Assembly (NCBI GenBank): GCA_016219015.1
Contig: JACRCL010000014.1
Coordinates: 1 to 64,000 of the forward strand
Source: Deltaproteobacteria bacterium
GTDB lineage: Bacteria > Desulfobacterota > GWC2-55-46
DNA length: 64,000 bases
Direction of reading: 5' to 3'
Below are positions 11,248-52,436 of the stretch, one piece after another. Both the position numbers and the translations under genes were made by a program. The notes under the pieces were generated by a model. The model was not told the DNA's origin, did no database searches, and worked only from the letters and a program-made list of their open reading frames with translations. Numbering within the stretch: position 1 is the first letter of the stretch; each line of letters opens with the position of its first letter.

Positions 11248-12459
11248 ATGAAAAAGTCTGCAATTTCCGCATTATTGACCCTATTTCTTCTGAGCGGCTG
11301 CGGCGGCGGGGGGGTGGAATCCTCCCCTTCGACCCCGGGCGTGAGCGCAACGGTCATCTCGGCCGGGGACTCGCACACCTGCGAGGTCATTTCAGGCGGC
11401 TCGGCAAGGTGCTGGGGCTTGAATACCTCCGGCCAGGTCGGCAACGGCACCTTCATTAACGCCTTGAAGCCCGTGGCCGTTACAGGCATATCCGGGGTAA
11501 GGCGCATCAGCGCGGGCGGGGCCCATTCCTGCGCGGCGCTATCCGACGGGGGCGTTCGGTGCTGGGGCGAGAACACGAGCGGCCAGCTCGGGAACTCGAC
11601 TACCACCACTTCCACGACCCCGGTCGTTGTATCCGGCATCGCTGCCGCATCCGATGTCTCGGCCGGCGGCAGCCACTCCTGCGCTCTTTTATCCGACGGC
11701 AGGGTCTTTTGCTGGGGCAAGAACACCTTCGGCGAGCTTGGGAACGGCTCCAACTCCAGCTCAAGCGCCCCTGTGGCCGTCTCGGGCATCACGGGCGCCA
11801 CCGAGGTCTCCGCCGGCGGGAACCACTCCTGCGCCCTCCTCTCCGACGGGACAGTAAGGTGCTGGGGCTTGAATTCCTTCGGCCAGCTCGGGAACAGTTC
11901 GATTTCCAACTCGAACATACCTGTTGCCGTAACGGGCATCTTTACGGCCACGCACATTTCGGCCGGTACAAACCACACCTGCGCCACCATCTCGGACGGC
12001 ACGGTAAGGTGCTGGGGGGATAACAGCTCCGGGCAGCTCGGCTCCTTCTGGACGCTTGTAAGCCTCATCCCGCTCGTAAACGTCACGGTCTCATCGACCC
12101 CTGTGCAGGCCGCGTCCATCAATACCTCTGCCGATATCTCGGCCGGGTTCCAGCATACATGCGCCCTTGTTACCGGCTCCACTATAAGGTGCTGGGGCGA
12201 AAACAATTTTGGCCAGCTCGGAAACGGCGGGGTTACCGTCGGGTTTACACCTCCTGGCGCGGGCGCTTCTTTCACCTCTACCATTTCCCCGGTGACAGTA
12301 AGCAACATCTCGACCGCAAAGGCCGTGGACGCCGGGCTCTTCCACACATGCGCGCTTCTTACTGACGGCACGGTCAGGTGCTGGGGGGTGAACAGCTCCG
12401 GACAGCTCGGAAACGACACCGGGGTAAGCTCGCCCCTGCCCGTCGAGGTCGCCAATTAA
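11248..12459 (+). CDS. RCC1-repeat lipoprotein (predicted seven-bladed beta-propeller)
   Basis: Lipobox LLSGC; seven HTC/HSC...CWGxNxxGQLG repeats. Confidence 0.92.
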   Translation: MKKSAISALLTLFLLSGCGGGGVESSPSTPGVSATVISAGDSHTCEVISGGSARCWGLNTSGQVGNGTFINALKPVAVTGISGVRRISAGGAHSCAALSDGGVRCWGENTSGQLGNSTTTTSTTPVVVSGIAAASDVSAGGSHSCALLSDGRVFCWGKNTFGELGNGSNSSSSAPVAVSGITGATEVSAGGNHSCALLSDGTVRCWGLNSFGQLGNSSISNSNIPVAVTGIFTATHISAGTNHTCATISDGTVRCWGDNSSGQLGSFWTLVSLIPLVNVTVSSTPVQAASINTSADISAGFQHTCALVTGSTIRCWGENNFGQLGNGGVTVGFTPPGAGASFTSTISPVTVSNISTAKAVDAGLFHTCALLTDGTVRCWGVNSSGQLGNDTGVSSPLPVEVAN

Positions 12460-13931: not shown

Positions 13932-14789
13932 ATGCTTAAAAACACATTCTGCCACATCCCGGGCATCGGCGCAAAGACAGAGCGCAGGATGTGGGACGAA
14001 GGGGTCCTGTCGTGGAACGAGGCCCTCAAGGGCGTCCCATTCGCCCTGAAGAGGGCGCACTCGCTCGAGGCCCGCGTTGAGGAGTCCCTCATCCAGCTTG
14101 AGCGCGGAAACCCCGCGTACTTCTCGAATCTCCTGTCCCCCAGGGACCAGTGTCGCATACTCGACGAGTTCCGCTCCTCCATTGCATACCTCGATATCGA
14201 GACGAACGGATACGCGGGCCCGTACGGCTACATAACCGCCATCACGGTCTACGACGGGAGCGCGATACGCTGCTACATAAAGGGAAGGAACCTGGAGGAG
14301 TTCAAAAGGGATATCCGGGACTACAAGGTCGTAGTCACCTATAACGGGAGGTGCTTCGACATCCCTTTCATCGAGGCCCACCTCGGCATGAGCTTCCGGA
14401 GTTTTGCCCATATTGACTTGAGGTTTGTCCTGAAGGACCTCGGCGTAAGGGGAGGGCTTAAAGGCTTGGAACGGCACTTCGGCATAGACAGGGGCGGCCT
14501 TACGGGCCTCGACGGCTATTCAGCCGTGCTTTTATGGAACGAGTTCAGGAGGAACAGGAACGAGAAGGCCCTTGATACCCTTCTGGCCTATAACATCCAG
14601 GATGTAGTGAACCTCGAGCCGCTGGCTGTCCTTTCCTATAACTTGAAGCTCAGGGGGACCCCGTTTGAGAACACGCACAGGTTGCCGATGCCGGGACCGA
14701 CTCCAAAACACCCTTTCAAGGCGGACGCGGATGTAGTGGACATGGTCTTAAGCGCGCAGTCGAACGGCATGCGCGCAGCCGCGCCTTAA
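13932..14789 (+). CDS. RNase H-like exonuclease, YprB-type
   Basis: AYLDIETNG ... VVTYNGRCFDIPFI ... YNIQDVVNLEPL; ORF track opens at a TTG (13908), first ATG at 13932. Confidence 0.8.
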   Translation: MLKNTFCHIPGIGAKTERRMWDEGVLSWNEALKGVPFALKRAHSLEARVEESLIQLERGNPAYFSNLLSPRDQCRILDEFRSSIAYLDIETNGYAGPYGYITAITVYDGSAIRCYIKGRNLEEFKRDIRDYKVVVTYNGRCFDIPFIEAHLGMSFRSFAHIDLRFVLKDLGVRGGLKGLERHFGIDRGGLTGLDGYSAVLLWNEFRRNRNEKALDTLLAYNIQDVVNLEPLAVLSYNLKLRGTPFENTHRLPMPGPTPKHPFKADADVVDMVLSAQSNGMRAAAP

Positions 14790-14799
14790 GCCGCCTAAC

Positions 14800-14915
14800 A
14801 GGCTGCTCAAAAGTCCAATCTGCGGCATCGTCTTCAAAATTCGTCACTGCGACGTACTGAGTAGCCTCATTCCTCATTTTTCGACTCTTTGCATCTTAGA
14901 CTTTTTGAGCAGCCT
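14800..14915 (+). repeat. Palindromic element family A, copy A1
   Basis: Ends AGGCTGCTCAAAAGTC / GACTTTTTGAGCAGCCT; shares CGTCACTGCGACGTACTGAGTAG core with A2. Confidence 0.9.
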
Positions 14916-14971
14916 GAACGTGATTATGAGTTTTTCTTGACATTGTTTCAACATTTCGAAAAAATGCAAGT

Positions 14972-25239: not shown

Positions 25240-25260
25240 CCCGAAAGACTCTCCTTTACT

Positions 25261-25412
25261 CTATAGGTTGCCTCTAAAAATTGTTCTTTTTCCTGATCTC
25301 TGCGTCAGGGCGAAAATAAAAATGCTCACATATTCCCATATATGCTGCGCTTTTTATTTCCACCCTTCCTTGACCTCAGAAAAAATTCCTAATTTTTAGA
25401 GACAGCCTATAG
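25261..25412 (+). repeat. Palindromic element family C, copy C1
   Basis: Terminal inverted repeats CTATAGGTTGCCTCTAAAAATT / AATTTTTAGAGACAGCCTATAG; body nearly identical to C2. Confidence 0.92.
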
Positions 25413-31273: not shown

Positions 31274-32287
31274 GTGAAAAAACTGATTTACGCCTTTGTA
31301 GTAATATCCGTACTGGTCCTCATAGCGGTCCCCATCTACCTTAAAAGGGAAAAAGAGAGCGTCACCTACTCGCGCGACCTCATGGGCACTATCGTCCAGA
31401 TAACGCTCATGAGGGGGGAGCGCACAAGGTTCGACGCGGCCGCTAACGCTGCCTTCGACGAGATAAAAAGGTATGAAACGCTCTTCAGCTCCTATATCCC
31501 GGATAGCGACGTATCGAGGGTCTCGAAAGAGGCCGGGGTCAGGCCCGTAAAGGTCTCCCCCGAGGTCATGGAGGTGGTCGAGAAGGCCGTCATGGTGGCG
31601 GAACTGTCGGGAGGCGCGTTCGACCCGACCGTAGGAGCGCTTTCAAAGGTCTGGGGCCCTTCGGGTGAGAAAGGGTACGTGCCGGCAAAGGAAGAGGTCG
31701 GGAAACTCCTTCCTCTTGTCGATTATAAAAATATTGAGATAGACAAAACAGCCTCGACAATATTCCTGAAGAAAAAAGGGATGGCCCTGAACCTCGGCGG
31801 CGTGGCCAAAGGCTTTATTACTGAGAAGGCGGCCCTAAAGCTCAAGGCCAACGGGGTCGAACGCGGGATAGTCCACGCCGGCGGCGACATGGTCGTATTC
31901 CAGAAAGACGAGCAGAGGCAGTTCATCATAGGGATACAGCACCCGAGGGAGAAGAAATTACTCGGCGAGGCGCACCTCTATAACGGCGCCGTGGCAACCT
32001 CCGGCGACTACGAGAGGTTCTTCATGAAAGACGGCGTCAGGTACCATCATATCCTCGACCCGAGGACGGGCTTTCCTGCCATGAAATCGATGGCTGTCAC
32101 CATCATAGCGAAAGACCCGACGATGGCGGACGCGCTTTCAACTGCCGTATTCGTCATGGGCCCGAAGGACGGGATGGAGCTCGTCGACAGGCTCGACGGC
32201 GTCGAAGGCTCGGTCATGGGCGAAAAGGGCGAGATAAAGGTGTCGAAGGGGTTCGAGGGGTGGCTGGCGGATTCGAAGACGAGATAG
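31274..32287 (+). CDS. apbE: FAD:protein FMN transferase (ApbE family)
   Basis: N-terminal membrane anchor; GTIVQITL, GGVAKGFITEKA, HAGGDMVV, HHILDPRTGFPA. Confidence 0.95.
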   Translation: MKKLIYAFVVISVLVLIAVPIYLKREKESVTYSRDLMGTIVQITLMRGERTRFDAAANAAFDEIKRYETLFSSYIPDSDVSRVSKEAGVRPVKVSPEVMEVVEKAVMVAELSGGAFDPTVGALSKVWGPSGEKGYVPAKEEVGKLLPLVDYKNIEIDKTASTIFLKKKGMALNLGGVAKGFITEKAALKLKANGVERGIVHAGGDMVVFQKDEQRQFIIGIQHPREKKLLGEAHLYNGAVATSGDYERFFMKDGVRYHHILDPRTGFPAMKSMAVTIIAKDPTMADALSTAVFVMGPKDGMELVDRLDGVEGSVMGEKGEIKVSKGFEGWLADSKTR

Positions 32288-32290
32288 AAA

Positions 32291-32412
32291 AGGCTGCTGA
32301 AAAAACCCATCTGCTTCGTTGTCTTCAAAGCTCGTCACTGCGACGTACTGAGTAGGCTCATTCCTCCCCCTATTTCAATGGGGCCTCGCATCTGGAGCTT
32401 TTTGAGCAGCCT
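32291..32412 (+). repeat. Palindromic element family A, copy A2
   Basis: AGGCTGCTGAAAAAACCCATCTGC ... AGCTTTTTGAGCAGCCT; starts 4 nt after the apbE stop. Confidence 0.92.
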
Positions 32413-32547
32413 TTTTGAACACGGCATAGCGAGCGAATCGAAATCGAATGCTTCCTTATGTGTCGAAGATTCCCCTCAGGAAGCCGCCGGGAAATTCCAG
32501 TTTGAGTTTTTTAGCAACCTTTAATCCTTGGGTGCGCTATCGTGGGT

Positions 32548-40575: not shown

Positions 40576-40734
40576 TAACAGGATACGGTATGGCCGAAGT
40601 GAATGGCAGAACTCCGTTCTTTCTGGCAAGGTAGTTTTTCTTGATATTGCTCGCCTTAACTTCGGTTACGGCGAGCACCCGGAGGCAATCCGTCCATGGA
40701 TTGCCTGGCAGGTTGTTGTTTAACACCCTGCTAA
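40576..40734 (-). repeat. Palindromic element family B, copy B1
   Basis: Minus strand TTAGCAGGGTGTTAAACAACAACCTGCCAGGCAATCCATGG ... TTCACTTCGGCCATACCGTATCCTGTTA; matches B2. Confidence 0.85.
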
Positions 40735-48148: not shown

Positions 48149-48269
48149 AGGCTGCTCAAAAAGCTCCAGATGCGAGGCGTCGAGGAAGCGAGGCATGAGA
48201 CGTACTTTTTTGTACGTCGCAGTAACGAGCGACGAAGACAACAAAGCAGATGGACTTTTTGAGCAGCCT
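48149..48269 (-). repeat. Palindromic element family A, copy A3
   Basis: Reverse complement matches A2 (AGGCTGCTCAAAAAGTCCATCTGCTTTGTTGTCTTC); abuts the yidC stop codon. Confidence 0.92.
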
Positions 48270-49829
48270 TCAGGCCTTTGCGGGCGCCCTCTGTATATAG
48301 TACTGCTGGGCTATCGACAGGACGTTATTGACGAGCCAGTATATGACGAGGCCGGAGGGGAAGTTGAGGAACATGAAGGTGAATACCACGGGCATGATGA
48401 GCATCATCTTGGCCTGTGTCGGGTCTACGCTCGTGGGCGTCATCTTCTGCTGGATGAACATCGTTGCGCCCATGAGGAGCGGCGTTATGTAGTACGGGTC
48501 CTTGTCGGATAAGTCCCTTATCCAGAGGTAGAACGGCGCGCCGCGGAGCTCTATTGCGACATAAAGGACCTCGTAGAGGGCGATGAACACGGGTATCTGG
48601 AGGACCATGGGCAGGCACCCGCTTACCGGGTTGACCTTATACCTCTTGTAGAGCTCCATGAGCTCCTTGTTCATCTTCTCCTTGTTGCCCTTGTACTTCT
48701 CCTTCAGGGCCGCGAGCTGCGGCTGGATCTTCTTCATCTCGTTCATGGAGGTCATGCTGTGCTTGGTGAGCGGGTAGAAGAGGACCTTTATTATGACGGT
48801 CAGGACAAGTATCGCTATCCCGTAGTTCCCTATGTACCTCTCGAAGAAGTTCAAGACTACGAGGAACGGCCTTGCCATGATGGCGAAGAGGCCGAACTCT
48901 ATCGCCTCGTCGAGGCCTATCTTCTGCTTAAGGAGGAGGTCGTACTCCTTGGGCCCCAGGAACGCGCTGTAGCTCAGGGCAGTTTTTCCGCCGGGGGCGA
49001 GGTCGAAGGGGGCCTCTATGCCCGCGTTCGATGATACCGACGACGCCACATCGGCGGACCAGCTCATCCGCGAGTCTTTCGAGGGGATAAGGACCGAGAG
49101 GAAGTACTTGTCCTCGGTGCCTATCCAGACCGGGGCCTCGGCCCCGTCCTTATGGGGCTCCTTCTCGGTAAGCCTTACGAGCTTGTCCTTTGTCTTGACT
49201 ATGGGGCCGGTATGGTAGCCTGTCTTATCCTTGCCGGCGATGCTTGAAGCCATCAGGGTAGAGACCCTGCCCTTAAGGGGCTGGCCCGTCGTGTTTATAA
49301 CGTTTACGTGGGTATTTAATATGTAGCTGCCGCCGGAGAAGGTGTAGACCTTCTCTATCTTGAGCCCGTCCTTTACGCCTGTGAAGACAAGCTCGGCCTT
49401 CTCCCCGTCTTTTACGGTTATCTCGGCCCTTGACGCCGTAAAGGCGACCGGCTCCGATACCCCTTTGGCCTCCAGCATTGTCTTCAGCGACCCCCTGCTG
49501 ATCGCGTCAGCGAGGTTTATCCTGCCGTCCCTGTTCCTGGTCTGCGCGAACTTTTTAAGCTCCCACTTCCTTATCGCGCCGCCGTTGCTGGTGAAGACGG
49601 CCGTAAAGAGCGGGGTGTCTACCGTGATAAACTCTTCTTTTACGGGGGCTGAAGGCTGCCCCTGCTCTTTCGCCCCGGAAATAGGGGCGGGCGCTGAAGG
49701 CGCTTCTTTCTGCGCCTCTTTTACCTGGGGCTTCGCGGCCTGCCGGGGGTAGAATTTCTGGAGGGCGTAAGGGTAGAGGAAAAGCACGCCCATGGAAAGT
49801 ATTATCGCTATGATGAGCTTCTTATCCAT
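48270..49829 (-). CDS. yidC: Membrane protein insertase YidC
   Basis: N-terminal TM, periplasmic domain, NPVSGCLPMVLQIPVFIALYEVL. Confidence 0.96.
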   Translation of the reverse strand: MDKKLIIAIILSMGVLFLYPYALQKFYPRQAAKPQVKEAQKEAPSAPAPISGAKEQGQPSAPVKEEFITVDTPLFTAVFTSNGGAIRKWELKKFAQTRNRDGRINLADAISRGSLKTMLEAKGVSEPVAFTASRAEITVKDGEKAELVFTGVKDGLKIEKVYTFSGGSYILNTHVNVINTTGQPLKGRVSTLMASSIAGKDKTGYHTGPIVKTKDKLVRLTEKEPHKDGAEAPVWIGTEDKYFLSVLIPSKDSRMSWSADVASSVSSNAGIEAPFDLAPGGKTALSYSAFLGPKEYDLLLKQKIGLDEAIEFGLFAIMARPFLVVLNFFERYIGNYGIAILVLTVIIKVLFYPLTKHSMTSMNEMKKIQPQLAALKEKYKGNKEKMNKELMELYKRYKVNPVSGCLPMVLQIPVFIALYEVLYVAIELRGAPFYLWIRDLSDKDPYYITPLLMGATMFIQQKMTPTSVDPTQAKMMLIMPVVFTFMFLNFPSGLVIYWLVNNVLSIAQQYYIQRAPAKA

Positions 49830-50649: not shown

Positions 50650-50663
50650 AACAATTCCTCTTT

Positions 50664-50816
50664 CTAAGGGCTGTCTTTAAAAATTGTTCTTTTTCCTGAC
50701 CTCTGCGTCAGGCCGAAAATAAAAATGCTCACATATTAACGCATATATGCTGCGCTTTTTATTTCCGCCCTTCCTTGACTTCAGAAAAAATTCCTAATTT
50801 TTAGAAGCAGTCCTAA
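50664..50816 (+). repeat. Palindromic element family C, copy C2
   Basis: Body TTGTTCTTTTTCCTGACCTCTGCGTCAGGCCGAAAATAAAAATGCTCACATATTAACGCATATATGCTGCGC... nearly identical to C1. Confidence 0.92.
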
Positions 50817-52278: not shown

Positions 52279-52436
52279 TATCAGGATGTTGAAAAAGTCC
52301 GTCCTGAACTTTTTCAACTACGACTTGGCCGAAGTGAATTCGTCCAAGTCTCACAAATTGCTCGACTTTTCAAGTCTCGCAATTTGGCAACCCATCCATG
52401 GATTGCTTAGCAGGCTGTTTTTCAACAGCCTGCTAA
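52279..52436 (-). repeat. Palindromic element family B, copy B2
   Basis: Minus strand TTAGCAGGCTGTTGAAAAACAGCCTGCTAAGCAATCCATGGATGG ... TTCACTTCGGCCAAGTCGTA ... ATCCTGATA; contains the dnaA stop codon. Confidence 0.88.

Follow-up and report, generated by a model that had tools for sequence, protein, structure and literature searches.

Foldback repeats beside stop codons in a Desulfobacterota genome are probably non-autonomous IS5-group elements whose target accounts for their position

Insertion sequences of the IS5 group duplicate a target of the form Py-T-A-Pu, or YTAR (PMC5493358). RUP, Correia and ERIC repeats are short elements between genes, with inverted repeats and target duplications of their own; for RUP, an insertion sequence has been proposed to act in trans as the mover (PMC2229807). 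The BOX repeat of Streptococcus pneumoniae encodes, in 36 cases, the stop with which a gene closes at its extreme 3' end, with no strong evidence that the genes concerned were truncated (PMC3049150). Finally, 24 "predicted short RNA elements" of Geobacter with GRCGTAGCGCTGCTACGCC as central palindrome appear in a genome paper from 2009 (PMC2700814). These were treated as intergenic RNA elements, one of them between co-transcribed dap genes, and the main-text passages on them state neither mobility, nor IS5 ends, nor a stop-codon rule.

Here we describe family A, a repeat found in a stretch of 64,000 nt (the window) from contig JACRCL010000014.1 of a Deltaproteobacteria bacterium. Our analysis makes it very probable that family A is a non-autonomous MITE of the IS5 group, and that its target explains why it lies against stop codons. 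A preliminary description had placed three copies in one family, beginning 10, 3 and 0 nt past stop codons, and we confirmed the grouping, the coordinates and the distances. Their aligned segments are 74-88% alike, and each folds better than shuffled sequence (z -3.0 to -8.8). The first, A1, follows a yprB-like gene with a TAA stop (14787-14789, + strand), which 10 nt separate from the core (14800-14915). The window sequence and the consensus of copies together place a left target copy, CTAA, at 14795-14798 (+). From there, A1 runs from its left terminal repeat (C followed by AGGCTGCTCAAAAG) through an inner inverted repeat (CTTTTTGAGCAGCCT) at 14799-14915 (+) and on into a tail whose right terminal repeat has decayed (TTTTTCTTGACATTG; 14916-14945, +). 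The core of A2 (32291-32412, +) begins 3 nt after the TAG stop of an apbE-like gene (32285-32287, +) and has a left edge without a clean YTAR and C. Its tail (32413-32520, +) is enlarged by a further repeat and has the right terminal repeat TTTTTTAGCAACC at its end, followed by TTTAA. An alternative tail, GAACACGCATAGCGAGCG...CGAAGATTCCCC, can be drawn at 32413-32524; it also occurs in the tails of four other copies (L002, L018, L021 and L028) and is apparently a further repeat nested inside the family A tail. A3 (core 48149-48269, - strand) stands directly after the TGA stop of yidC (48270-48272), where CTGA (48270-48273, -) is a degenerate YTAR target. Its right end, like that of A1, has decayed.

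When copies were aligned together with their flanks, the 121-nt core seen first proved to be only part of a unit of ~151 bp, CAGGYTGCTGAAAAA...TTTTTCAGCARCCTG. Copies with both ends measure 138-182 bp, mostly 142-157, which is too small for a transposase gene. Immediately 5' of the core, the consensus is YTAR followed by C (TTAGC, TTAAC, CTAAC). About 30 nt lie 3' of the core, with the terminal repeat TTTTTCAGCARCCTG at their end, and then YTAR appears again. What the preliminary description folded as two arms corresponds to the left terminal repeat paired with an inverted copy of it farther in. In the host genome, YTAR precedes 36 of 97 located left ends against a background of 0.46%, and the left and right flanking tetranucleotides agree more than when shuffled (p = 0.002), with identical target copies at only 6 of the 30 copies that have both ends. 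Family A therefore bears a 4-bp YTAR target duplication, terminal inverted repeats and a short unit, all of them marks of a MITE.

We estimate that the host genome (G000; 2.24 Mb, 33 contigs, 96.6% complete) holds about 150 copies. A 14-nt pattern, AAAAGTCCATCTGC, occurs 192 times with two mismatches or fewer vs. 35 times for a reversed control, equivalent to about 157 copies above control, and BLAST gave at least 40 full-length matches at E<1e-28. For positional analysis we sampled 613 kb, about a quarter of the genome in stretches partly picked for having copies, within which there were 126 matches, 100 of them near full length. Genes were called with a codon-based caller made for this analysis, in which starts are less certain than stops. 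Beyond the host, matches were found in 23 of 25 genomes of its family and in 65 of 297 genomes sampled across the phylum (22%).

The preliminary description had concluded that copies all lie just 3' of a stop codon in the orientation of the gene, and had suggested a rule of gene-end insertion. This holds for A1-A3. In the host genome sample, by contrast, a stop was faced by the left end in 50 copies and by the right end in 47, and the 100 near-full copies included 37 co-oriented and 34 anti-oriented in same-strand gaps, 13 between divergent genes and 12 between convergent ones. A second genus (G006) showed the same mixture of positions. Thus, the gene-end rule fails for the window's family, although such a rule does hold in a relative from Geobacteraceae described below.

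No near-full copy lay inside a called gene (100 copies, 613 kb). In 19 copies the stop codon is exactly the TAR of the left YTAR (TAR followed by C and the core), in 6 this occurs at the right end, and in 5 the upstream reading frame closes at a TGA within the element. Uniform placement over all intergenic space, whether at TA or at YTAR, failed to reproduce the adjacency to stops and starts; under the YTAR null, 9% of copies are expected in stops vs. about 25% observed. Conditioning on gap size succeeded. Many copies part closely spaced same-strand genes, and 44 of the 71 in same-strand gaps sit in gaps of 60 nt or less. In same-strand gaps of 0-60 nt, stops make up 52% of YTAR sites and are used by 43% of copies, while positions within 25 nt of a start account for 78% of sites vs. 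70% of copies. Per site, YTAR in short gaps was hit about 25 times more often than in gaps of more than 120 nt. The stop adjacency of family A thus arises because a YTAR target and a preference for short gaps make stops frequent sites of insertion. Contrary to the earlier claim that random insertion does not predict this position, random YTAR insertion does so once short same-strand gaps are taken into account.

Comparison with orthologous loci supported a history of insertion. Uncultured Deltaproteobacteria are the nearest named relatives of the host, and in the closest of them yidC (79% identical) has the same ending, ...QRAPAKA*, with a conserved stop and no element. At six further genes, no recognisable element was present in 20 of 22 ortholog loci, and most element-free orthologs stopped at an identical or almost identical position (e.g., ...LIKDYI*, ...FGY*, ...KLAKA*). 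At one insertion (C22:42982), the last residues of the gene were replaced. Orthologous genes of the host (G000:C22:60052) and of another genome of its genus (G001, L223) both have family A at their TAA stop, in opposite orientations, which suggests repeated insertion into one stop codon. The little positional conservation among copies argues against a maintained function for them.

To connect family A with a transposase, we compared its ends with those of known elements. A run of 22 identical nt, TTAG followed by CAGGCTGCTGAAAAAGTC, occurs on plasmids of Bradyrhizobium and Pseudohalocynthiibacter beside IS5-family transposase genes (NCBIfam NF033581), and in both IS5 elements the same end is inverted at the other side, with TTAG on both flanks. 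Elements of ~150 nt in Paracoccus and Phaeobacter have the same TTAG and CAGGCTGCTGAAAAAGTC ends, the Phaeobacter one lying directly after the TAG stop of a recombinase gene. These alphaproteobacterial elements have only their ends in common with family A, not the interior. Within the same phylum, intact NF033581 elements of 1335-1352 bp (L258, L260, L268) have CAGGCTGTTGAAAAA ends, and their flanks are YTAR or close to it. By sequence, family A shares its ends with autonomous IS5-family elements of both alphaproteobacteria and its own phylum. The NF033581 transposase had no match in the host genome (33 contigs, 96.6% complete) and only weak or partial matches in the host's family, none of them with family A ends. 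Not every MITE needs an autonomous parent in the same genome. An IS630/Tc1 parent with a TA target was considered and rejected: the host genome has no DDE_3 match, and the flanks fit YTAR. No family A match was found in phage and E. coli collections, a literature search for the sequences themselves returned nothing relevant, and Rfam recognised only a tRNA in the window and gave only weak chance matches on one element.

These observations are consistent with the following mechanism. An element bounded by CAGGYTGCTGAAAAA and TTTTTCAGCARCCTG would insert at YTAR and duplicate it, as IS5-group transposases do, and would be mobilised in trans by an IS5-family transposase that has since been lost or is missing from the assembly. 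Because YTAR contains TAA or TAG, insertion into a stop would regenerate it, leaving an intact stop right before the element and the upstream protein unaffected. In short same-strand gaps, YTAR sites outside coding sequence are scarce, and the stop is one of them. Selection against insertions in coding sequence and in promoter-bearing gaps would then act as a filter, and avoidance of disturbed promoters may be what produces the short-gap preference. Survivors would lie mostly in compact same-strand gaps, in either orientation, flanked by a stop at one end and by a ribosome-binding site at the other. The hairpin may be needed for mobility, or may simply be tolerated as part of the co-transcribed RNA.

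The MITE reading leaves room for an older history in which a structured gene-end element was captured between IS5-type ends, or a MITE was domesticated at gene ends. Such a history is compatible with the MITE reading, and we regard it as a tentative possibility raised mainly by Geobacteraceae. The palindrome GRCGTAGCGCTGCTACGCC recurs in 5 of 7 Geobacteraceae genomes, and in members of this family other than G. metallireducens several of its loci match the family A profile over positions 1-121 (best E 2e-10). Copies were found there through their core, a route that may be biased toward one class, and they fall into two classes that share this core: one with IS5-type ends, the other (the arm class) with other, variable ends. 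The IS5-ended class shows no preferred orientation relative to the gene (8 same, 7 opposite). The arm class is oriented 45 same to 4 opposite (p about 1e-9), differing in this from the window's family (p = 5e-7); 45 of its 51 copies are co-oriented with the upstream gene, each of these 45 with its left edge -4 to +8 nt from the stop, and 41 of 51 copies are in same-strand gaps. Its outer arms vary between copies yet stay complementary, such that 17 of 30 pairs carry two-sided changes, with 135 two-sided cells vs. 37 in shuffles. When argB-like orthologs from two genera are compared, the stop changes from TAA to TGA and the opposite arm changes to match. Arm-class elements recur in two genera at two further genes. 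In many arm-class elements, the bases of the stop codon form part of the outer stem (L366, L359, L372, L379; G331/G333).

It is conceivable, but we think somewhat improbable, that the phylum contains a single structured core in two forms: a MITE with IS5 ends that inserts either way round and, in Geobacteraceae, an element of fixed orientation tied to the stop codons of genes in same-strand clusters, with variable yet complementary outer arms that often pair with part of the stop. If true, the arm class would be either an RNA element of gene ends that has yet to be described or a system that inserts at gene ends in one orientation only. Together, the two forms would then document that a transposon captured a structured RNA, or that domestication took place. 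Given its strong orientation bias, stop anchoring and heavy covariation, the arm class makes a good candidate for an RNA element, as yet undescribed, within operons. The host genome itself contains a weak relative of family A (G000:C13:17511-17610, in L059; E about 7e-4) that lies 1 nt past a stop, co-oriented, between different but complementary-looking arms, GGACGCAA..TTGCGTCC. From its sequence, this could be an arm-class copy.

A gene-end RNA role for family A itself, in which its hairpin would act on the upstream transcript as a terminator, 3'-end protector or operon spacer, seems unlikely, even with the stop-locked arm class and its compensated argB stop as precedents. Structure speaks for it. 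Conservation of the interior can be recognised throughout the phylum, and in a phylum-wide alignment with explicit structure 10 pairs had two-sided changes, amounting to 60 two-sided cells vs. 14.9 in shuffles; paralogous copies are not independent, so these counts are not counts of events. Compensatory changes in the stems, whose absence the preliminary description had said would undo it, are thus present. Covariation was strong in two helices, the outer stem and the central hairpin, and structures slid along the alignment scored far lower. A within-genome fold had indicated a near-absence of covariation, but it mispaired the central hairpin, and the wider alignment reversed this result. A conserved, covarying interior is unusual for a MITE and is required neither by target duplication nor by recognition of terminal repeats. 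It may come from a folded strand in mobility, from a role as RNA, or from quasi-palindrome correction.

Against a role as RNA, family A lies in both orientations almost equally, with 13 of 100 copies between divergent genes, most orthologous sites are empty, and many copies lie between closely spaced same-strand genes. An intrinsic terminator (a G+C-rich hairpin and T run) was found within neither A2 nor A3, and most family A copies have no T run 3' of the hairpin. The sites of integrons known as attC also sit just 3' of stops in the orientation of the gene, but despite the size, foldback shape, gene-end position and occasional YTAAC left end of family A, there is next to no chance that its copies are attC sites, as they are single, dispersed between housekeeping genes and in both orientations, with YTAR duplications and a left edge that is as commonly TTAGC as TTAAC.

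Other repeats occur in the window. A second dispersed, MITE-like family of about 150 nt has its own inverted ends, TCTATAGGTTGCCTCTAAAAATTG...TTTTTAGAGACAG, and two copies (25260-25405 and 50663-50810) that are 87-94% identical by segment. At 40684-40734 and 52386-52436, a stem-loop TTAGCAGGCTGTTGAAAAACAGCCTGCTAA adjoins an GCAATCCATGGATGGGTTGCC hairpin; the former is in effect two joined IS5-type ends with TTAG/CTAA flanks, possibly a minimal element. Seven diverged tandem repeats, mostly at 150 nt spacing (11345-12414), lie in one predicted protein (11341-12459, +).

The MITE reading offers a simple, testable reason why mobile repeats can look gene-end specific: the target contains a stop that is regenerated on insertion. 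It also links repeats found in more than a fifth of the sampled phylum genomes to the IS5 group, and probably to the Geobacter elements that had been catalogued as predicted RNA. REP and BIME are palindromes of 20-40 nt associated with a RAYT transposase. Family A differs from them in end sequence, size, terminal-repeat architecture and orientation, so of the earlier label "REP/MITE-like" we retain a MITE-like foldback family and discard REP. Compared with BOX, family A provides a similar case by description, in a different host and with a different composition. RUP, Correia and ERIC, also compared by description, have TA at their ends, other end sequences and no YTAR target. Elements retrieved from other Geobacteraceae genomes with the palindrome of the predicted short RNA elements of Geobacter have a core homologous to that of family A. 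The IS5 group (NF033581) and its MITEs have the same terminal sequence, CAGGCTGCTGAAAAAGTC, and the same 4-bp YTAR target; family A differs from the group in that it has no transposase gene, its conserved interior covaries, and its terminal repeat occurs a third time, farther in.
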